Below the pieces are notes generated by a model. The model did not search any database. It was not told the DNA's origin and saw only the letters and a list, made by a program, of their open reading frames with translations. Positions 8,260-18,072 of a stretch of 64,000 bases of DNA are shown one piece after another. The first letter of the stretch is position 1; every line of letters starts with the position of its first letter. The stretch is from Deltaproteobacteria bacterium (GTDB lineage Bacteria; Myxococcota; Myxococcia; Myxococcales; 40CM-4-68-19), in contig VBKI01000065.1 of NCBI GenBank assembly GCA_005879535.1, forward strand, positions 69,501 to 133,500, given 5' to 3'. The translations under genes and the position numbers were made by a program.

Positions 8260-8307
8260 AGTCTCAATCGTACCCGCAAAGCCGCACCTCGCGGTGCGGC
8301 GCGGCTA
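8260..8307. repeat. Double-stem palindromic element, copy A
   Basis: This roughly 48-bp element fills the gap between pyrD and the FHA-lytic transglycosylase. The inner stem is GCCGCACC (8281-8288) with GGTGCGGC (8293-8300) around a TCGC loop. The outer stem is 8271-8277 with GCGGCTA at 8301-8307 (one mismatch). AGTCTCA lies at 8260-8266. The TAG stop of the minus-strand gene is the edge of the outer stem. Copies B (48576-48622) and C (62912-62960) share sequence and structure. It may act as a bidirectional terminator. Confidence 0.8.
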
Positions 8308-9855
8308 ATCAGCTTCCTCGAGCCCGAGCTTCTTTGCCTGCCGCGAGACGATGGCCGCCGCCAGCACCTTGGGCACGTACTCGCGGGTCTCCTCCGGCAG
8401 CTTCTTCATCCGGTACAGGTGCCAGAAGTCGCGCTTCTCCTTGCGAAAGCCACCCGGCTCCTGCGCGATCTGGTGCAGGACGCGGCGGACTCCGGTCTCG
8501 CCGCGGTTGTAGGAAGCCATCGCCAGCATGAAGGAATCGCTGCCGTATTCGGCGAGCAGATTGGCGAGATGCCGCGCCGCCGCCCTCGTCTCGCGGTCGG
8601 CGTCGTACCGCTCGTCCACTTTCGCGTCGACGCGCAGGCCGTAGTTGTGGGCAGTGGTCGGCATCATCTGCCACATGCCGGCCGCCCCCGCACTGCTCTT
8701 CGCTTTGGGATCGAACTGCGTCTCCGCCCATGCCACGTACGCCATCTCCTCGGGAAGGCCGAGCGCGTTGAACTCGCGGCTGATCATCCCCCAGTACCGC
8801 TGCTTGCGCCGGTAGACGAACTTCAGATTCGGCGCCTTCGTCAGCTCGTCGATGTGGAACTTCAGCCGCTCCTTGAAGATGGGCGGCACCGCGTAGGTGT
8901 CGGCATCGAACTTGCGGAGGATGTCGCGGATCTGCCGGTCGATCTCGTCGCCGGACTCCGCCAGCGCCGCCGCTTTGCCCTTGTCGGACTTGCCGAGCGC
9001 GGCCAGCGTATTCCTGGCGTTGCCGGTGAGCGTGTTCAGCCGTTCTTCGAGCGCCGCGAGCCGCTCCGGATCGGACTCCTCGTTCATCTGTTGCTGGACC
9101 GCCTCGATGTCCCGGTCGAGGCGCTCCTTCTGCGTCACCAGCTCCTCGATCTGCCGCTTCTGCCGGGCGATCACGACTGCCATCGCCGCCACGACCATCG
9201 CGGCCACGGCGGCCACGACGGCGACGACCTTGACCCAGCGCCTGGCGGTCTTGGTCCGCGTGAAGCGCTGCACCTCCTTCAAGGTGGCGGCCATGATCAT
9301 CATGGTCTTTCCCGAAGGCATTCCACCCGCCTTCGCGCGCTCCTCGGCCACTTTTTTCGCCGCGAGCTCCGCCAGCCGCGCCGTCGCGGTGTCGGCGCTG
9401 CTCTTGAGGTCGCTGGAGATCCGGTTCATCTCCGAGGTTGCGTCGATGCGCGGCGGCGAGGAGCCGCGCCGCGCGGCCTCGGCGCGCTGGATCGCGCTGA
9501 TCGACGCCGCCTCCGTCTTCATCGCGCCGCCCATGCCTTCCTTGGCGTCGAACTCGACCTTCACCAGCGGTCCGCCGGCACCGAGCTGCACTTCCTCGCC
9601 CTGCCGCAGCCGATGCTTGGCGACGCGCCGGCCCTCGACCAGCGTGCCGTTGGTGCTGGCGGTGTCCACCACGAACCAGCAGCCGTCCTCGAGGAGGAAT
9701 TCGGCGTGGTGGTTGGAGACTTTCGGGTCGCGCTGCTTGTCGAAGCGGACGTCGCAGTCCGACGCGCGGCCCACGCGCAGGGTCGGTTTCGCCGACGTCG
9801 AAGTCTTGCCCTGCAGACTTCCCGACAGGTGTGTGATGCGGATCATGCGCGCCAC
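8305..9855 (-). CDS. FHA domain - transmembrane - SLT lytic transglycosylase fusion
   Basis: This 516-aa protein begins with a forkhead-associated domain (residues about 5-102). LRVGRASDCDVRF, SNHHAEF and TNGT are the phosphothreonine-binding loops. A single membrane helix follows at about 208-230, then a coiled coil to about 315. An SLT-type lytic transglycosylase domain spans about 355-500, with the catalytic Glu in AWAETQFDP and then GMWQMMPTTA and ASYNRGETGV. The FHA part should be cytoplasmic and the murein-cleaving part periplasmic, which suggests control of wall turnover by Ser/Thr kinases. The start may be residue 1 or the Met at residue 4. Confidence 0.88.
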   Translation of the reverse strand: MARMIRITHLSGSLQGKTSTSAKPTLRVGRASDCDVRFDKQRDPKVSNHHAEFLLEDGCWFVVDTASTNGTLVEGRRVAKHRLRQGEEVQLGAGGPLVKVEFDAKEGMGGAMKTEAASISAIQRAEAARRGSSPPRIDATSEMNRISSDLKSSADTATARLAELAAKKVAEERAKAGGMPSGKTMMIMAATLKEVQRFTRTKTARRWVKVVAVVAAVAAMVVAAMAVVIARQKRQIEELVTQKERLDRDIEAVQQQMNEESDPERLAALEERLNTLTGNARNTLAALGKSDKGKAAALAESGDEIDRQIRDILRKFDADTYAVPPIFKERLKFHIDELTKAPNLKFVYRRKQRYWGMISREFNALGLPEEMAYVAWAETQFDPKAKSSAGAAGMWQMMPTTAHNYGLRVDAKVDERYDADRETRAAARHLANLLAEYGSDSFMLAMASYNRGETGVRRVLHQIAQEPGGFRKEKRDFWHLYRMKKLPEETREYVPKVLAAAIVSRQAKKLGLEEAD

Positions 9856-9898: not shown

Positions 9899-10855
9899 TC
9901 AGGTCCGAAGGGCGGCGAGATCGGGTTGGTCTTCTCCGGTCGCCGCGCGTCGCGGCTCCACGGCCCCGAACGCGGCGCGCACGACGGCCATCACCGCGAG
10001 CGCGATCGCGAGCCCGAGGAAAATGTCGAGCAGGTAGTGGTGGTTGAGGTAGACGGCAGCGAAGCAGACCAGCAGGAAGTACGGCGCAGCGATTCGCCGG
10101 AACCGGCGCAGGTGCCAGCCATAGATCATCGCCAGGAACGGATAGACGACGTGGAGGCTGGGGATGGCGCCGAACACGTCCGCGCTCTTGCCGTAGAACC
10201 CCTGCATGACGGGAATGCCGATCAGGTGATCGAACCGGATGGCTCCCGCCGGCGAAGCATGGACGGCGAGGTTCACGACGAATCCGTGATCGGAGACGTA
10301 CCACGGCGGCGCGGCCGGGTAGACGTAGTAGCAGGCGAAGCCGATGAAGTTGGAGATCACGAAGATCCAGGTGAACCGCTCCGCGCGCCGCACCTGGCCG
10401 TTGGCGATGAACCAGATGCTGAGCAGGATCGACTCCCCGATGAAGAACATCGGCGTGTAGGCCAGGCCGCAGAGGAAGTCGAGGACCGGGCTCGTGTGCC
10501 GCTGCAGCCACTCATTGGGGGTCAGCCCATGGATCCCGAACCAGCGCAGATCGAAGTCGTACGGCTCGTGCACGTGGATGACGGGCGAGCGGATGTAGTC
10601 CGCGTACCAGCGCATCGAATCGTACACCAGCGCGTAGAGCAGGTAGGGAAGTCCGATCAGCGCCAGCTTGCGGCTCTGGTCGTTCCAGAGCGAGAGCACG
10701 AGGGCGATGACGGCGGCCAGGAAATGCTCCGGGCCCGGACCGCCGAGCAGATGCAGCGCCGCCAGATACGCGATGGTGAGCGCGGGGATCCAGATGGTGA
10801 AGAAGGGATGCGCGTCCCGCAGCTGATCGGGGCGGGGCCGCAGGAAGGTGGGCAT
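9899..10855 (-). CDS. PAP2-superfamily membrane enzyme resembling Aur1-type inositol phosphorylceramide synthase
   Basis: This 318-aa polytopic protein has the lipid phosphotransferase signature in Aur1-like form: YPAAPPWY at 179-186, IPSLHVVYPF with His235, and NHHYLLDIFLG with His273 and Asp277. Several hydrophobic helices surround these. Aur1 relatives move a phospho-head group (for example inositol phosphate) from a phospholipid to another lipid at the outer membrane face; plain PAP2 phosphatases share the His/Asp core. The ATG lies 1 base after the stop of the RND gene, so it is in one operon with the exporter, aminotransferase and CDP-alcohol transferase. The substrate is not known. Confidence 0.8.
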   Translation of the reverse strand: MPTFLRPRPDQLRDAHPFFTIWIPALTIAYLAALHLLGGPGPEHFLAAVIALVLSLWNDQSRKLALIGLPYLLYALVYDSMRWYADYIRSPVIHVHEPYDFDLRWFGIHGLTPNEWLQRHTSPVLDFLCGLAYTPMFFIGESILLSIWFIANGQVRRAERFTWIFVISNFIGFACYYVYPAAPPWYVSDHGFVVNLAVHASPAGAIRFDHLIGIPVMQGFYGKSADVFGAIPSLHVVYPFLAMIYGWHLRRFRRIAAPYFLLVCFAAVYLNHHYLLDIFLGLAIALAVMAVVRAAFGAVEPRRAATGEDQPDLAALRT

Positions 10856-10856
10856 C

Positions 10857-13343
10857 CTATGCGGCCCCCTGCTGGGCGGCGTCGGCAGGAACGGCCGCGG
10901 TCCTTCTCCGGTCGCGGAGCGAAAGCACCGCCGGCAGCGCGAACAGCGCCGCCGTCAGGCAGGTCACCTCGCCGATCACCGCCGTCAGCCCGAAGCTCTG
11001 GATGGCCTGGTTGTCCGCGGTCACCAGCGTCGCATAGCCGATCATGGTGGTGACCGAGCAGAGCGCCACCGCGCCGCCCGAGGAGGAGAGCGCCTCCTCC
11101 ACGCTGCAGGTCTGCCGGTACCGCTGGTAGAGGTTGACGGCATAGTCCACGCCGATTCCGAAGGTGATGGGCAGGACGGCGAAGTTGACGAAGTTCAGCT
11201 TCAGCGAGAGAGCGGTCATCGCTCCCGCTCCCCAGAGAACCCCGAGCGAGAGCGAGGCGATCACCCACGCGCCGTCGCGAATGCTGCGCATCACCACCAC
11301 CGTGAGCAGGGCGACGGCGAAGAAGCTGAGCAGCGCGGTGAACCGGCCGTCGTCGGTGATCGCCTGGACGATGTCCGTCGTCAGCACGATCTGGCCGGCC
11401 ACCAGCGCGCTCCGATCTACCTTCAGCGCCGCCTCGCGCACGGTCCGGGCGTGCTGGATCTGCGCGCGGCCGTTCGAGCTGTCGGTGGCGAGGGTCGGGA
11501 ACACCAGGACGATCCGGCCGCGGTGCCCGTCCTTCTCCACGAACGCGCGCGTCAGCCGCTCTGGCACGTCCGAGAGCGAGACGGGCTCGAGCTTGGTCCG
11601 CTCGCGCAAGCGCCGGATCTCCGGGGGCAGCTCCGCTGCCGGCCGCTTGTCGAGGAGGCTGAAGATCTGCCGCAGGATCTCCAGCTTCTGCGTTTGGTCC
11701 TTTGGAATGAACTGCTGCAGCGTGACCACCGACTCGATGGTGCTGTTCGGTCCTTCCTGCTCCTTCTCCTTCTCGATCGCCGCGGCCACCGCCTGCGCTT
11801 CTTCCGGCGAACCGGTGAGCACCACCGTGGGAGTCTGGTACGACTGCAGGACCGCGTCGACGTGGCGGTCCCAGTAGCCCTGTCCGTGATTCTCGCTCGA
11901 CCGGCTCCCCAGCTTGGTGAAGTCGTACTGGATCGGCTCCTGCGCGAACAGGTAGCCGGCATACAGCGAGGCGCCGCCGAGAGCGACCGTGATCACCACC
12001 GGGATCAGCGGCCTTCTCACCACCAGCTGGGCGAAGGGGCCGGCGAGCCACCCGACCACCCGGCCACGCTTCGGCGGCGCGAGCTCGCCGTAGGGCCAGA
12101 ATTTCTCCTGGAGTGCGATCAAGGCCGGCATGAGCGCATAGGTGGTGAGCCAGCAGAGGGCCATCCCGAAGAAGCCCATGAAGGCGAACTGGTTGAACCC
12201 ACGGAAGCTCACTGCTCCCAGCGAACCGTAGCTCGCCGCCGCGGCGGCGCTCGCCGCGAACGTGGCGATCCAGGTGGCGCGCAGCGAGAGGGGAAGCGCC
12301 CTGGCGATGTCCGAGCCGTGCCTGCGCTCCTCGATGTACCGCGCGAGGAGGATGATTCCCGCGTTGATCCCATTGCCGATGATGATGCTGCCGAGGAACG
12401 CCGTGTTCGGATTGAGGTAGTGGATCACCTCGCGCGAGAGAGCGAAGGTGAGGGCGACGCCGGTGAAGAGCGGAAAGACCAGAAGCGGTACCGCCCGGAT
12501 GGTGCGGTAGTAGAGAATCAGCGCCAGACCGACGGCGGCGAGCGTGAGCGCGCTGGAGAGCGCGAGATCGCGGACCAGCGCTTCCTGCGCCTCGATCAGC
12601 CCCTTGATCTCGCCGCCGTAACCGATCTCGATGCTTGGATGGAAGCTCTTGGGATTGAGCTCTTTCACCTTGAAGTCGACGGCGCCGAAGATCCGCTGAT
12701 CGTCCTCGAGGCTCACCGCCGCGCCTGGAGGCGAGAGCAGCATCACCAGCGTGTGGCCACCTTCGCCCGCGAGGTACCCGTCGGGGTAGCGGTCGAGGCG
12801 CGCGTAGGCTGCCTTGATCCGGGCCACCGCCTCGTCGAGACTGACCGAAGGCGCGGTCTCCCCGTCGTCGGCGAGGTCGACGAGCAGTGGATTCGCCCGG
12901 GCAATCTGCGAGCGGAGCGCGTCGCGCGCGGCGATCAGATCCTTGAGATCGGCATAGAGCGCTCCGTGGCGGTCGAGGAACTCCTTCTCCGCGTCGACGC
13001 GCCAGTGCACCTGCGCCACCAGCGACGGCGGCAGTTGCTTCAGGCTTGCAGCCAGCGCGTCGACGAACCGTTCGCCGGCCTTCAGATCGTCGGTGCGCAC
13101 GACGATCGCGAGGTGCGAGAGGCCGCCGATGCGCCTCTCCAGCTCGGCGAGGGCCACCGCCGCCGGAGCGCCCTGCGGCAGGAGCTCACGAAGATCGGTG
13201 CGCAGATCGCCGTAGAGCCGCGCTGCGCCAGGGATGGAGGCGACGAACGCGAGGATCCCGAGGAGCACGATCAGCCTGGGCCGGCGGAGCGAGAGCGCCG
13301 CCCACCACTGCCAGAACCGCGCGGTCCGGGAGAGCTGCTCCAT
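10857..13343 (-). CDS. RND/MMPL-family exporter
   Basis: This 828-aa protein has two similar halves, each with a membrane helix, a large periplasmic loop and a five-helix bundle, as in MMPL/HpnN-type RND transporters that export lipids. The first helix (RLIVLLGILAFVASI) is followed by a long soluble region. Helices cluster again around 270-400 and 670-815. GIGVDYAVNLYQRY in the second half resembles the RND helix-4 motif with conserved Asp. It sits between the aminotransferase (10-base gap) and the PAP2 gene (1-base gap). A product of the neighbouring lipid enzymes is the likely cargo, by inference. Confidence 0.85.
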   Translation of the reverse strand: MEQLSRTARFWQWWAALSLRRPRLIVLLGILAFVASIPGAARLYGDLRTDLRELLPQGAPAAVALAELERRIGGLSHLAIVVRTDDLKAGERFVDALAASLKQLPPSLVAQVHWRVDAEKEFLDRHGALYADLKDLIAARDALRSQIARANPLLVDLADDGETAPSVSLDEAVARIKAAYARLDRYPDGYLAGEGGHTLVMLLSPPGAAVSLEDDQRIFGAVDFKVKELNPKSFHPSIEIGYGGEIKGLIEAQEALVRDLALSSALTLAAVGLALILYYRTIRAVPLLVFPLFTGVALTFALSREVIHYLNPNTAFLGSIIIGNGINAGIILLARYIEERRHGSDIARALPLSLRATWIATFAASAAAAASYGSLGAVSFRGFNQFAFMGFFGMALCWLTTYALMPALIALQEKFWPYGELAPPKRGRVVGWLAGPFAQLVVRRPLIPVVITVALGGASLYAGYLFAQEPIQYDFTKLGSRSSENHGQGYWDRHVDAVLQSYQTPTVVLTGSPEEAQAVAAAIEKEKEQEGPNSTIESVVTLQQFIPKDQTQKLEILRQIFSLLDKRPAAELPPEIRRLRERTKLEPVSLSDVPERLTRAFVEKDGHRGRIVLVFPTLATDSSNGRAQIQHARTVREAALKVDRSALVAGQIVLTTDIVQAITDDGRFTALLSFFAVALLTVVVMRSIRDGAWVIASLSLGVLWGAGAMTALSLKLNFVNFAVLPITFGIGVDYAVNLYQRYRQTCSVEEALSSSGGAVALCSVTTMIGYATLVTADNQAIQSFGLTAVIGEVTCLTAALFALPAVLSLRDRRRTAAVPADAAQQGAA

Positions 13344-13353
13344 CGCGTCAGTC

Positions 13354-14697
13354 CTACGCCGCGCCGTGCCTGCGCGCTACGGCCTCGATCGCCTCGCGCA
13401 GTAGCGACAGCCCGCTCAGCGCGGTGTCGCGGTCGATGGTCAGCGCCGGCTGCAGCCGGATCGCGTGGGTGTAGCTCATCGCCAGAAGTCCGCGGCGCAG
13501 CCCGTCCTGGAAGATCTCGCCGCAGATCTTCCTCGCCAGAGGCTCTTTCGTCTCCCGGTCGGAGACCAGCTCCACGCCGAGGAATAGTCCCTCTCCGCGG
13601 ACGTCGCCCACCCATCTCAGGCGGTCCGGCCAGGTGCGCAGCTCGTCCAGCATCGCCGCGCCGACCTCGCGTACGTTCTGCAGGACGTTGTCGCGATGGA
13701 GGATCTGGATGCTGGCCAGCGCCGCCGCCGCGGCCAGCGGGTTGCCGCCGTAGGAGGAGGAAGACCCGCTCGGATTCGCCCAGGGCTTTGCCTGCGCGAT
13801 CTCCCCTTTCGCGACCACGCCGCTGATCGGGAAGCCGCCGCCGAACGCCTTCCCGATGGTGATGATGTCCGGCGTCACGCCGCTCCGCTCGCACGCGAAC
13901 CAACGGCCGGTACGACCGAAACCCGTGATCATTTCGTCGGAGATGAACACCGCGCCGTGCTCCCTGGCGATCTCCTGTGCTCTCACCATGAACTCCGGCG
14001 GCGGAATCACGTTCCCCGCGGTCCCCTGGAGGGGTTCCATGATCACCGCCGCCACGCTGCCCGCCGTCTGGTGGCGCAGCTGGTCGCGCGCCAGATCCGC
14101 GCAGGCGATGCCGCAGCTCCGCGGCTCGAGCTTGAGCGGGCATCGATAGCAGTTCGCAAAGGGCAGCACGTGACCAGGTGGAATCGGCCCGTAGCTCTTC
14201 GCGTTGCCGGCGCCGTTCGCGGAAAGCGCCCGCGCCGTCTTGCCGTGAAAGCCACCCCAGAAGCCGACGACTTCCTGGTGGCCGGTGTGGTTCATCGCCA
14301 GGCGGAACGCGCTCTCCACCGCCTCGGCGCCGCTGGAGTAGAGCTGGACCTTGTCGACGCCCTTGGGCGTGACCTTCGCGACCTCGTTGATCAGGTCCGC
14401 GCGCGGCGCGCTGGTGAACGATCCGACGGTCACCTTGTCGAGCTGCTCGTGGAGAGCCTTCGTCCACGCGGGGTGGCGATGGCCGAGGCTGTTCACGCCG
14501 ATCCCGCCGATCAAGTCGACGTATCGGTTGCCGTCGACGTCCTCGATCACCGAGCCCTGCGCGCGTTCGACGGCGATGCCGGAGCTGAGCGCGAAGCCCT
14601 GCAGGCCGGGGGCAAGATGCCGCTGCTCGTGCTCCACCAGGCTGCGGGATCGCGGGCCAGGGATTTCCGTCTGGATGTGCGGGGCTTTGAGCGCCAT
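13354..14697 (-). CDS. Class III PLP-dependent aminotransferase
   Basis: This 447-aa fold-type I enzyme is of the class III group (4-aminobutyrate, ornithine and related omega-aminotransferases). DGNRYVDLIGGIGVNSLGH, SSGAEAVESAFRLA, FHGKTARALS, VIMEPLQGTAG and FISDEMITGFGRTG are typical, and the PLP Lys lies in ITIGKAFGGGFP. A short Cys-rich insert (NCYRCPL, then RSCGIAC) at about residues 180-198 may bind metal or simply be conserved. The substrate cannot be told from sequence. Its place in a lipid-like operon suggests it makes or removes an amino group on a head-group or lipid precursor. Confidence 0.88.
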   Translation of the reverse strand: MALKAPHIQTEIPGPRSRSLVEHEQRHLAPGLQGFALSSGIAVERAQGSVIEDVDGNRYVDLIGGIGVNSLGHRHPAWTKALHEQLDKVTVGSFTSAPRADLINEVAKVTPKGVDKVQLYSSGAEAVESAFRLAMNHTGHQEVVGFWGGFHGKTARALSANGAGNAKSYGPIPPGHVLPFANCYRCPLKLEPRSCGIACADLARDQLRHQTAGSVAAVIMEPLQGTAGNVIPPPEFMVRAQEIAREHGAVFISDEMITGFGRTGRWFACERSGVTPDIITIGKAFGGGFPISGVVAKGEIAQAKPWANPSGSSSSYGGNPLAAAAALASIQILHRDNVLQNVREVGAAMLDELRTWPDRLRWVGDVRGEGLFLGVELVSDRETKEPLARKICGEIFQDGLRRGLLAMSYTHAIRLQPALTIDRDTALSGLSLLREAIEAVARRHGAA

Positions 14698-14815: not shown

Positions 14816-17137
14816 TCAGAAGGCGGGCAGATTCGCGGGCTTGTTCGCGTAGGAAAATTCGGAGAGCGCCTGGCCGCTGCGCACTGTCGGCTCCTCGCCC
14901 GGCCTCTCGATTCGCAGCTCGTAATGGTTCTCGTAGGTGTAGGCCATTGGAGCAGCCCAGGTGCTCACCAGCAGCCGCGACAAGGGCCCCATCTCGTCGA
15001 GGAGATCCTGGCGGTAGAGCAGCTTCCGCGCCTGGACGTGCACGGTCACCGTCTCGCCGTCCACGCCCCGGGCCACGGCCGCAACGCGTTGCGGAACGTC
15101 GTACTCGAAATGCCCTCCCGGCTCGTGGCGCAGATCCTCGAATGCGATTTTGACGTCGGTGGATCGGACTTCCGTCTTTCCGTCGCGCGAGGTGTACATC
15201 CACCCCTGCGGCGGCAGCCGCGAGCCCCCCGGGGGAAAGAGGATCGCCAGCGCCGCGCTCGTTCCCTGCTCGCCGTCGAACGCCTGCATCCGGTACCAGA
15301 GCGAGGCGCTCTTGTAGGCCGGGACCGTGGAGTAGGACGTGTCGGCGTACGAGTAGCCACGCATCCGGCGGCTGCCGGTGCCTGCGCTCCACAGCGTTCC
15401 CTCGAACCTGCTGCGCAGGGCGAAGATGGTGTGGTCGAAGACTGCATGGCCGCTGGCGTCGAAGACGACGCGGCCCCCGCCGGGCCGGACCGGCTGCGTC
15501 TCGGGAAGGACGGTGGCGTCCACCACCAGCTTGCGGCCCGCGAAGTGGACGTGATGGCTCGCGTCCGGGCCCATCGTCAGGCGGGAGGTGCCCATCTCGA
15601 TGGCGCCTTCCGGCTGCACGGCCCACTCGCCGCTCTCGAACGCTTGCCCGTCCTCGATGGTCCTGCCGTCGGGCGCCACCACTACCGCGCGCACCGCGCC
15701 CTTGCCGTGCCCTTCGAGGCCGGCATTGCTGACGAGGAACTGCACGCGGGCGAACGACCCGTCGTCGGCGCTGAAGAGGAAGGAGTAGCTCTCCGAGTAG
15801 AACGCTTCGGAACGGAGCTTGGGGAGAAAGCTCTTCTGCGTCAGATTTGCCGTGTCGGGAAGCGCGCTGGAAAAGCCGTGCACCTGCTCCTCGGCGAACG
15901 GATTTCCGTACGAGACGAAGAGCACCGCCATGGCGGCGAATCCCGAGGCGACCGCGCCGATCAGCGCCAGCACCGGATGCGGGCGACCGGTCTGCTCGCG
16001 GAAGACGAAGATCCGGTGCAGCGGCAGGTTCCAGCAGAGCGACACGCCGAGCCCGACCACGGCGGCTGCCACGAGCGGGTTCCAGCGCAGTCCCTCGGTG
16101 AGGAGGATGACGCCGACCGTGTTGAGGAGCAGCGAGGTGAGGGAGATGGCCGCGTACCGCGGCACTTCCACCAGGACCGAATTGTCCTGCGTCTTGAAGG
16201 TGTAGATCTTGTTCACGGTGAAGTTGGTGATCGCTCCGAGCAGCGCCCCGAGGGCGCGCGAGCTCCCGGTGTAGATCCCGACTACCTCCACCAGGATCGT
16301 GAACGTGCCGTAGTCGACCGCCGTCGCGATCGCCGAGGCAATCCACGCGCGTTGAAACCATCCCGACAGCTCCTCCTCGCGGGTGGACGCGGCCGGGGCG
16401 GCACCCTCGCGTTTGCGCAGCTGACCGTGGATGTAGATGAAGCGCCGGATCGCGGTGACGTTCGCCATCACCGCGACCAGCAGCAGCGTGGCGAGCATCA
16501 GGTAGAACGCGGGGTGCGAGCCGCGAGGCTCGGCGAACTGCGCCAGATATGGCGAGAGCACGCCGGCCGAGCCGATGTACAGCGCGCGCTCGCCGCGGTT
16601 CATCGATCCCATCCGCGCGTCGATCCCGGAGATCTCGCCTTTGGCACGGGCGTAGGAGACGAGCAGTGCGCCGGCGAGCGAGGTGAGCGCGAGCCAGAAT
16701 CCCAGGGGATAGCTCCGGTAGTACGCCGCAATGCCGGCGAAGGTGGCGATCTCCGCGTAGCGATCGACGGCGGCGTCGAGGAGCTCGCCGGCGTCGGACG
16801 CCGTGCCGCGCGTGCGCGCCACCATCCCGTCGAGCGCGTCGAGGATCGCGCAAGCGATCACCAGCCAACCGCCGAGCGTGAAACGGCCGGTGGCGAACGC
16901 CGCGGCGCCGGCCACGCTGCAGCCGAGCGACCCGAGCGTGAGCTGATTCGGCGTGATCCGCAGGCGCAGGCAGAGCTTCTCGAGGGGCTCGAAGCACCAG
17001 TAGCCGAACTCGATGAAGAAGCGGCTCAGGAATACGCTTCCCGGCTCCTTCTTCACCCGCTCGGGCACGTACCGGCCCTTGACCAGCACGCGGAGCGAAT
17101 ACGCGCCGAGCAGCACGACAACGATCCCAATCGTCAC
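14816..17137 (-). CDS. CDP-alcohol phosphatidyltransferase - GtrA - C-terminal beta-rich (lipocalin-like?) fusion
   Basis: This 773-aa protein combines three parts. Residues about 40-240 form a CDP-alcohol phosphatidyltransferase with a perfect catalytic motif at 100-125 (DALDGMVAR, then G and two Asp in GELLDAAVDR). Residues about 260-385 are a four-helix GtrA-like domain (DYGTF, NFTVNKIYTF, WNLPLHRIFVF). Residues about 395-773 are soluble and beta-rich after one more helix. SYSFLFSADDG and ARVQFLVSNAG there faintly recall Svf1/AttH double-lipocalin lipid carriers, by memory only. It probably makes a phospholipid and moves it. The start is GTG 17137. Confidence 0.85.
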   Translation of the reverse strand: MTIGIVVVLLGAYSLRVLVKGRYVPERVKKEPGSVFLSRFFIEFGYWCFEPLEKLCLRLRITPNQLTLGSLGCSVAGAAAFATGRFTLGGWLVIACAILDALDGMVARTRGTASDAGELLDAAVDRYAEIATFAGIAAYYRSYPLGFWLALTSLAGALLVSYARAKGEISGIDARMGSMNRGERALYIGSAGVLSPYLAQFAEPRGSHPAFYLMLATLLLVAVMANVTAIRRFIYIHGQLRKREGAAPAASTREEELSGWFQRAWIASAIATAVDYGTFTILVEVVGIYTGSSRALGALLGAITNFTVNKIYTFKTQDNSVLVEVPRYAAISLTSLLLNTVGVILLTEGLRWNPLVAAAVVGLGVSLCWNLPLHRIFVFREQTGRPHPVLALIGAVASGFAAMAVLFVSYGNPFAEEQVHGFSSALPDTANLTQKSFLPKLRSEAFYSESYSFLFSADDGSFARVQFLVSNAGLEGHGKGAVRAVVVAPDGRTIEDGQAFESGEWAVQPEGAIEMGTSRLTMGPDASHHVHFAGRKLVVDATVLPETQPVRPGGGRVVFDASGHAVFDHTIFALRSRFEGTLWSAGTGSRRMRGYSYADTSYSTVPAYKSASLWYRMQAFDGEQGTSAALAILFPPGGSRLPPQGWMYTSRDGKTEVRSTDVKIAFEDLRHEPGGHFEYDVPQRVAAVARGVDGETVTVHVQARKLLYRQDLLDEMGPLSRLLVSTWAAPMAYTYENHYELRIERPGEEPTVRSGQALSEFSYANKPANLPAF

Positions 17138-17250: not shown

Positions 17251-17270
17251 AACGAATGCGACTTTTCGTT
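17251..17270. promoter_or_regulatory. AT-rich inverted repeat between two minus-strand genes
   Basis: AACGAA and TTCGTT flank 8 bases, overlapping the stop of the phosphodiester-glycosidase gene. The 131-bp gap 17138-17268 is unusually AT-rich here and separates that gene from the lipid cluster. It could be a weak terminator or an operator for the downstream operon. No strong promoter boxes are visible. Confidence 0.3.
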
Positions 17271-18072
17271 ACCTGCCCATGACAATCAACACGATCGGCA
17301 GGCCGACGCCCAGGCCACCGATGGCGTCCTCGGTGGGCTCGTCTTTCACGGAGAGCGTGGCCTCGGGGCCGCCGTCGAGGTTCATAGCGTCGACGACGCC
17401 CACCTGTTCCGCCAACCATTTTCCAACGCTGCGCCGAATCGCCGGCCACTGGGAGGCGAAGAGGAGAATGCGCCCGTCCTTGAGCTGCGCGATCGCGGCG
17501 GTACGCGACGACTCGGCGCAGTAATTCGGTCCTGCGCACGCGGCGGCTCCATTGCGCACCAGGGCGGGAAAGCTCTTCATCGCTTCCGTCCATTGCTCCG
17601 CGCGGAACTCGGAGGGAGCGAGAAACCGCGGGGACAGGGCGGAGGCGGGCTCGCGGCTCACCATCGGCGTCGAGGCGGAATCGGGGGGCCGCGGGACGGA
17701 CCCGAAGTACAGGGCATCCTGCCGTTGGCATCCCGCACCGCGGACGCGCAAGCCGTCGGAGACGAGCTCGCATGTCGGCCGCACTTCAGCGCCGTCCTTC
17801 GAATAGAACGACCCGTTCACGATCGCGATGGCGTTCGGGAACCGCTTCCGCCATTCCGTAAGCGTCGGGCGCGTCGCGTCGTAACGGACGAGAAGGCGCG
17901 TCTTGGCGAGATCGGCGAGCACCACGCGGGCGGACCAGGCGGGATCGCCTCCCAGCTCGGCTGCCGGCGCGGTTTCGACGCCCGGCGCCACGCGCTTCCA
18001 CGGCGTGGACAGCGACACTCCGGCAATCAGGAGCAGCGCGTAAATCACTCTCCTGAGACTGTACACGCGCAC
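17269..18072 (-). CDS. Phosphodiester glycosidase (NAGPA-like) family exported protein
   Basis: This 267-aa protein has an N-terminal signal or anchor helix (VIYALLLIAGVSL). The rest matches the phosphodiester glycosidase/DUF2233 family related to mammalian uncovering enzyme: IVNGSFYS, SSRTAAIAQLKDGRILLF and the hallmark MNLDGGPEATL near residue 230. Such proteins remove sugar phosphodiesters or act in exopolysaccharide and envelope chemistry. The start is GTG 18072; an in-frame GTG 6 bases later is an alternative. It lies upstream of the lipid cluster on the same strand, possibly with its own transcript. Confidence 0.82.
   Translation of the reverse strand: MRVYSLRRVIYALLLIAGVSLSTPWKRVAPGVETAPAAELGGDPAWSARVVLADLAKTRLLVRYDATRPTLTEWRKRFPNAIAIVNGSFYSKDGAEVRPTCELVSDGLRVRGAGCQRQDALYFGSVPRPPDSASTPMVSREPASALSPRFLAPSEFRAEQWTEAMKSFPALVRNGAAACAGPNYCAESSRTAAIAQLKDGRILLFASQWPAIRRSVGKWLAEQVGVVDAMNLDGGPEATLSVKDEPTEDAIGGLGVGLPIVLIVMGR

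Follow-up and report, generated by a model that had tools for sequence, protein, structure and literature searches.

A phosphatidylinositol-phosphate-synthase-like enzyme, a GtrA domain and a predicted periplasmic tandem lipocalin encoded as one protein in a Myxococcota bacterium

Among the systems closest to the gene reported here are ones from Bacteroides, Mycobacterium and yeast. In Bacteroides thetaiotaomicron, BT_1522-BT_1526 place an AUR1-like synthase, a phosphatidylinositol-phosphate (PIP) synthase, a GtrA protein, a phosphatase and a myo-inositol-phosphate synthase (MIPS) side by side (PMC9246714). The PIP synthase of Mycobacterium and Renibacterium (PgsA1; PDB 6h53 and 5d91) is a stand-alone enzyme of ~220 residues, and for Svf1, a tandem lipocalin of yeast, a role as carrier of ceramide to the Golgi has been proposed (reviewed in PMC10583516). 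We analyzed a 64,000-nucleotide stretch of DNA from a Deltaproteobacteria bacterium of the phylum Myxococcota (GenBank assembly GCA_005879535.1, contig VBKI01000065.1, positions 69,501 to 133,500), referred to as the window herein. On its minus strand, a single gene (14816-17137) encodes a 773-residue protein that joins a PIP-synthase-like domain, a GtrA domain and a predicted periplasmic tandem lipocalin, as judged by reading of the open frame, Pfam and a phylum-wide search. With a rough probability of 55%, we read this chain as an inositol-lipid synthase coupled to a lipid carrier that serves an AUR1-like enzyme and/or an MMPL exporter. Its role in inositol-lipid synthesis and the membrane side of the lipocalin are well supported, and the third domain is, as we infer, best explained by a hand-over of lipid.

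Compared with PgsA1, the window's protein shares the catalytic motif, the six-helix fold by homology and the residues for binding the phosphate group of inositol phosphate, but it adds an N-terminal helix, GtrA and the lipocalin, carries Arg/Lys at the positions of K135/R137 and stays under the curated model cut-offs. The Bacteroides genes are separate, whereas those of the window are fused, include a lipocalin and an MMPL gene, and stand without a nearby MIPS or known phosphatase gene; the fuller set of Bacteroides-type partners appears in the clusters of relatives. Like Svf1, the third domain is a tandem lipocalin with a distant Svf1_C match and an AUR1-like neighbor; unlike Svf1, which is a separate, cytosolic or Golgi-bound protein, it is predicted to be periplasmic, is tethered to a lipid synthase and does not reach the Pfam cut-off. 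The Bacteroides cluster, the mycobacterial PIP synthase and yeast Svf1 are already known, and the fusion and its lipocalin member are new as far as the literature searched reaches: within the terms used, we found no report of the three-part fusion, nor one that places a lipocalin in an inositol-lipid cluster of bacteria, and the word lipocalin has 0 occurrences in the text of PMC9246714.

The fused gene and its conservation

The gene begins with GTG and runs for 773 codons with zero internal stops. Against Pfam, the protein matched CDP-OH_P_transf at residues 61-170 (E-value 7.6e-13; 49.5 bits, cut-off 22) and GtrA_DPMS_TM (PF04138) at residues 267-379 (2.9e-18; 66.6 bits, cut-off 26.1). An earlier, sequence-only reading of this DNA had described a CDP-alcohol transferase, a GtrA domain and a beta-rich domain in one open reading frame without giving a strand. 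We found exactly this frame, on the minus strand, as are all window features described below.

Our survey covered 195 genomes of the phylum. Twelve of them, counting that of the window itself, belong to the window's family, and the fusion was present in 11 of these 12. The three parts lie in a single open frame in nine; contig ends cut the gene in G020 and G023, and the one family genome without the fusion, G025 (88% complete), gave no match to it. Identity to the window's protein was 68-91% in seven other genomes matched end to end and 59-65% in two pieces of G026. When the window was compared pairwise with five relatives, every domain showed a ratio of nonsynonymous to synonymous substitution rates (dN/dS) of 0.06-0.22, and the ratio was mostly higher in the first linker; all three domains are under purifying selection. 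The fusion is real and old. A lost stop or a misassembly that joined separate genes, which nothing beyond the unusual length would favor, is effectively excluded by the recurrence of the fusion across the family and by the low dN/dS in all domains. The sequence-only reading had named separate genes in relatives, together with a stop lost here, as the finding that would speak against it. The first part holds for relatives outside the family; the second does not, because the fusion occurs in 11 of the 12 family genomes.

Outside the family, PIP synthase (PIPS) and GtrA are fused in a protein of ~420 residues and the lipocalin is the next gene (e.g. L039, L041, L042, L071 and L078), locus L045 holds PIPS, GtrA and lipocalin as three separate genes, and many genomes carry a PIPS-GtrA fusion without the lipocalin. 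A second three-part fusion, a 744-residue frame with 32% identity to the window's protein, was found in genome G018 (locus L051). Since the two fusions occupy different supported clades in the trees of both the synthase domain (19 rows) and the lipocalin (17 rows), with L051 on a long branch in the latter, the three-part fusion most likely came about two or more times, in lineages far apart from each other. These arrangements bear on whether the fusion is simply an ordinary joining of operon neighbors for stoichiometry, with no lipid passing between the domains. Such an origin would agree with the many relatives in which the parts are adjacent and presumably work unfused, but it sits less well with the apparently repeated joining of PIPS, GtrA and lipocalin in distantly related lineages and with the many fusions of PIPS and GtrA that lack the lipocalin. 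We consider it quite unlikely.

Synthase, GtrA and lipocalin domains

The CDP-alcohol phosphotransferase domain is of the PIP-synthase type and covers residues 46-243 (16409-17002), as assigned by Pfam, NCBIfam, a PDB profile match and alignment. Its catalytic motif spans D100 to D125 (16763-16840), and the residues of D100-x2-D103-G104-x2-A107-R108-x8-G117-x3-D121-x3-D125 are identical in 19 of 19 aligned homologues, which bears out the earlier statement that the motif is complete. The motif (DG..AR...G...D...D) and a PF01066 match above cut-off place the domain among the class I CDP-alcohol phosphotransferases. The nearest NCBIfam models were all synthases that use inositol phosphate (archaetidylinositol-phosphate synthase, PIP synthase and the BT_1523 type; 1.2e-34, 1.3e-28 and 5.6e-26), and the best PDB match of the family profile was Mycobacterium PgsA1 (6h53, 7.6e-33). 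The PgsA1 acceptor residues S132, K135, R137, R152, R155 and R195 (PMC4634129, PMC6506517) align with S161, R164, K166, R181, R184 and R232 of the window's protein. R181, R184 and R232 are invariant in 19 of 19 homologues, Arg and Lys are swapped at the places of K135 and R137, and the inositol-phosphate-binding residues characteristic of PIP synthase are present. Domain 1 very probably runs a PIP-synthase-type reaction, as far as alignment and profile matches indicate.

The succession of helices and strands along the chain was read from hydropathy and from a full-length structure model, which is weak (pLDDT 47, pTM 0.29) and served this purpose alone. A helix at residues 2-20 is followed by an amphipathic-looking stretch, six helices (63-243), the four helices of GtrA (251-377), one further helix (388-410) and then almost only strands. 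The first of these is an extra N-terminal transmembrane helix (residues 1-20; 17078-17137) ahead of the six that make up the CDP-alcohol fold. The GtrA domain, with four transmembrane helices, occupies residues 251-379 (16001-16387) and qualifies for its family by the PF04138 score and by its four helices in the low-confidence model. Listeria GtcA requires R95 and N132 (PMC7389260); Arg327 and Asn370, kept in nine of nine fused proteins, were placed near these two by eye, GtcA lying outside the alignment. The last transmembrane helix (residues 388-410; 15908-15976) is signal-peptide-like by hydropathy and in the model, and is predicted to lead to the periplasm. The acceptor pocket of PgsA1 is described as cytoplasm-exposed (PMC6506517/PMC4634129), and if catalysis takes place on the cytoplasmic side, the number of helices leads to a periplasmic lipocalin. 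As an independent sign of this location, stand-alone lipocalin genes start with hydrophobic, signal-peptide-like segments, as judged by eye. The membrane side of the C-terminal domain, which the sequence-only reading had left to topology prediction, is thus predicted with high confidence to be periplasmic.

What that reading called a soluble beta-rich domain can now be described more closely as a tandem lipocalin of the AttH/CrtC/Svf1 superfamily (residues 441-773; 14819-15817), on the evidence of Pfam matches of family members, a structure model and fold comparison. The sole Pfam match in this part of the window's protein was Svf1_C at residues 663-763, which is sub-threshold (20.5 bits for the whole protein and 22.0 for the domain, cut-off 25); among 17 members, at E-values up to 0.1, Svf1_C matched six and CrtC matched two. 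The family profile had no significant match among PDB sequences (best E-value 0.045), and the structural placement came from fold comparison alone. The model, built from nine aligned family sequences, is weak (pLDDT 55, pTM 0.55). With Foldseek and a second aligner it matched AttH, kievitone hydratase, Diels-Alderases and 25-phosphosteroid lyase at Z 13.6-17.8, and the next unrelated row stood at 8.1. The best match, at Z 17.8, had a root-mean-square deviation of 5.0 over 280 aligned residues, and the Foldseek E-value to AttH (2ich) was 1.7e-10. Two successive lipocalin-like barrels, the hallmark of the superfamily, are seen in this low-confidence model. PF08622 is the Svf1 family. The authors of the AttH study tie AttH (DUF2006) both to PF08622 and to PF07143, the CrtC family (PMC2954199). 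The window's domain appears to share the AttH fold in our model but is 7-11% identical to 2ich over the aligned segments.

The same fold matches raise the alternative that the lipocalin, instead of carrying a lipid, acts in the periplasm as a hydratase-, lyase- or cyclase-like enzyme on the inositol lipid or its acyl chain, since kievitone hydratase, the pericyclases Fsa2, Phm7 and CghA, and 25-phosphosteroid lyase are among the top matches. The catalytic residues of CrtC include Tyr266 and Asp268 (PMC4717167), and a Tyr-x-Asp pair of this kind occurs in 15 of the 17 lipocalin members. The His-x-Trp pair that completes the CrtC tetrad, sought within 40 residues upstream, is present in 0 of 17, which leads us to reject a hydratase of the CrtC type and separates the domain from CrtC. 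An enzymatic role also fits poorly with the company that the lipocalin keeps, namely lipid transporters (MMPL, MlaC and TolC) and lipid synthases, and with the role in lipid transport that the AttH paper infers from genome context (PMC2954199). We regard the enzyme alternative as unlikely and lean, by a small degree, toward a lipid carrier for the inositol-lipid pathway. By analogy with yeast Svf1, ceramide would be one possible ligand of this carrier, a suggestion we make only tentatively.

Neighboring genes and linkage across the phylum

Three genes follow the fusion closely on the same strand. The first, a class III aminotransferase (13354-14697; Pfam, neighborhood comparison), starts 118 bp downstream of the fusion. 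After a further 10 bp comes an MMPL/HpnN-like RND lipid transporter (10857-13343; Pfam, NCBIfam), which matches the models of HpnN (6.3e-66) and BstA (7.2e-35); it resembles those lipid transporters but scores below both cut-offs, and no hopanoid gene was seen among the neighbors named. One base pair beyond it lies an AUR1-like PAP2 enzyme resembling inositol-phosphoceramide synthase (9899-10855; Pfam, NCBIfam, PDB). This protein carries a PAP2_3 domain (PF14378; 83.1 bits, cut-off 27), has phosphoinositol dihydroceramide synthase as its best NCBIfam model (5.4e-53), and matches AUR1 (9vj3) at an E-value of 3.2e-16 with GA(I/F)PSLH and HHY..D aligned; it thus combines the PAP2_3 domain and the AUR1 similarity expected of an inositol-phosphoceramide synthase. 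Its yeast counterpart, AUR1, uses ceramide. A second AUR1-like PAP2_3 gene of the window's genome (L103, 8937-9953, plus strand, G000:C60) has a squalene/phytoene synthase gene close by and a weak Omp85-like match next to it.

The aminotransferase has no specific NCBIfam assignment (best 352 bits, cut-off 552). It is a steady neighbor in one clade of clusters (the window, L045, L046, L047, L049, L050 and L052), and a Gfo/Idh/MocA oxidoreductase gene (c27) adjoins it in L047, L049, L050 and L052; an amino-inositol head group is one guess at its role. Directly after the AUR1-like gene, one protein combines FHA and lytic transglycosylase (SLT) domains (8305-9855; Pfam) and is probably unrelated. 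Upstream of the fusion, on the same strand, a gene of the NAGPA (phosphodiester glycosidase) family (17269-18072; Pfam, neighborhood comparison) is conserved in the window's family.

Across the phylum, the lipocalin profile matched 88 of the 195 genomes. Our linkage counts use matches of at least 170 bits, in 82 genomes (leaving out G010, G067, G070, G107, G146 and G188), and AUR1-like matches of at least 100 bits (10 of 88 genomes left out). They also omit the weaker CDP-only rows after G055 except G156 and G085 (e.g. G030, G031, G033-G038, G051, G054 and G190), as well as weaker or second MIPS rows, including that of G018 (8.7e-23), although a MIPS gene adjoins its fusion. Match coordinates were copied by hand, and, the genomes being related, a Fisher value is not an independent test here. 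Of the 82 genomes, 68 have the lipocalin within 10 kb of a PIPS-like gene; in 65 of these the two are on the same strand and less than 200 bp apart (fusions included; overlapping matches of two genes in G094-G097, G099 and G120 are not fusions). An AUR1-like gene lies within 10 kb of the lipocalin in 64 of the 82. Lipocalin and AUR1-like genes occur together in 69 of the 195 genomes, the lipocalin only in 13, the AUR1-like gene only in nine, and neither in 104. Of the 92 genomes entered, 63 have MIPS within 10 kb of the PIPS-like gene. Recurrent partners in relatives are MIPS, AUR1-like enzymes, DSP or HAD phosphatases, MMPL, MlaC and TolC. A third context, in two genomes of another family (L074 and L075), sets the lipocalin with a CDP-OH enzyme, a Kelch protein and MMPL, apart from any PIPS-GtrA gene entered; the extra genes are MIPS in L075 and, in L074, those of an NTP-transferase and of a membrane protein resembling LPG synthase. 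This resembles the alternative CDP-inositol cluster proposed in Bacteroidetes (PMC9246714) and suggests that two inositol-lipid routes share the role of the lipocalin.

Judged by its gene content, the neighborhood is a cluster for inositol-lipid synthesis and export. The earlier suggestion that synthesis and transport are joined in one chain agrees with this context, with transport as the putative part; the function of GtrA proteins is disputed even for well-studied members (PMC7389260).

A proposed lipid relay and its acceptor

In the scheme we favor, domain 1 would join CDP-diacylglycerol and inositol phosphate to PIP at the cytoplasmic face, as its sequence predicts, and a phosphatase would then strip the phosphate from PIP. 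GtrA may help the inositol lipid or a partner across the inner membrane, or may anchor partners. At the periplasmic face, the lipocalin would bind ceramide or the inositol lipid and pass it to the AUR1-like enzyme and/or to MMPL for the outer membrane, and the fusion would turn synthase and carrier into one membrane unit. Candidate phosphatases were found solely in relatives (a DSP gene in L039 and a HAD gene in L045 and, by cluster, L049), and neither a phosphatase for PIP nor MIPS was found near the fusion in the window. In the window's genome MIPS lies on another contig, contiguous with TolC-like and MlaC genes; the three together (L104, 6210-9809, minus strand, G000:C84) we regard as a second piece of the same pathway.

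Several observations weigh against this scheme. Domain 1 stays below the curated cut-offs of its nearest models (119.8 against 180 for NF040950, 100 against 170 for NF045883, and 91.7 against 350 for NF052561). The AUR1-like enzyme likewise stays below that of NF052609 (180.4 against 480), which 0 of the 195 genomes reach. Both structure models are weak, the Svf1_C match falls short of its threshold, and the superfamily includes enzymes besides carriers. In 14 of 82 genomes the lipocalin lies away from any PIPS-like gene entered in the count. Deletion of Bacteroides BT_1524, a GtrA gene adjoining the PIP synthase, left inositol lipids unchanged by thin-layer chromatography (PMC9246714). Lastly, canonical serine palmitoyltransferase (SPT) was not detected in precisely those genomes that carry the three-domain fusion, namely the window's family and G018.

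This absence bears on what the pathway makes. A search of the window's genome for canonical SPT found none; the best SPT profile matches reached ~310-334 bits in the window's family and an E-value of 1.3e-94 in G018, compared with 450-530 bits in relatives. One could therefore suppose that the product is solely glycerol-based phosphatidylinositol or its phosphate, exported by MMPL, with no sphingolipid part in the window's organism, and that the AUR1-like PAP2 protein works on a different acceptor or is itself a phosphatase. Against this stand the affinities of that enzyme to phosphoinositol dihydroceramide synthase and AUR1, and an SPT-like gene (454-483 bits, below the cut-off of 640) within ~10 kb of the PIPS-like gene on the same contig in G039, G040, G041, G042 and G048. 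Myxococcus xanthus is moreover reported to contain ceramide phosphoinositol (as cited in PMC9246714). In the window's genome we also observed a 2258-residue polyketide-synthase-like protein (L102, 2256-9029, plus strand, G000:C53) that ends in an oxoamine synthase (BioF/SPT-like) domain; this domain is the best candidate there for long-chain base supply and might provide one, again at odds with a purely glycerol-based product. We find such a product rather doubtful. Because canonical SPT is missing from the fusion genomes, however, the acceptor may not be ordinary ceramide.

Taken together, these observations would allow, as a speculation that we hold to be improbable as a whole, a bacterial relay of the Svf1-Aur1 kind: a periplasmic tandem-lipocalin carrier of ceramide or inositol lipid, joined covalently in at least two lineages to synthase and GtrA as a chain that makes, flips and hands over a lipid, and supplying both an AUR1-like synthase and an exporter of the MMPL type. 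The acceptor in the lineages with the fusion may then be a long-chain base of an unusual kind; for the window's family, the polyketide-synthase-fused oxoamine synthase is perhaps its source.

To our knowledge, how bacterial inositol lipids and sphingolipids move from the inner to the outer membrane is an open question. The apparently twice-arisen fusion and its conserved neighborhood name the players, namely PIPS-GtrA, the tandem lipocalin, the AUR1-like enzyme, MMPL, MlaC and TolC, and open the question to tests in laboratory strains of the Myxococcus type, which carry the lipocalin as a gene of its own that can be deleted. If our reading is true, it would provide a bacterial parallel to the yeast ceramide carrier Svf1, and the presence of all three domains in one protein of a soil Myxococcota bacterium suggests that a single machine both makes the lipid and passes it on.

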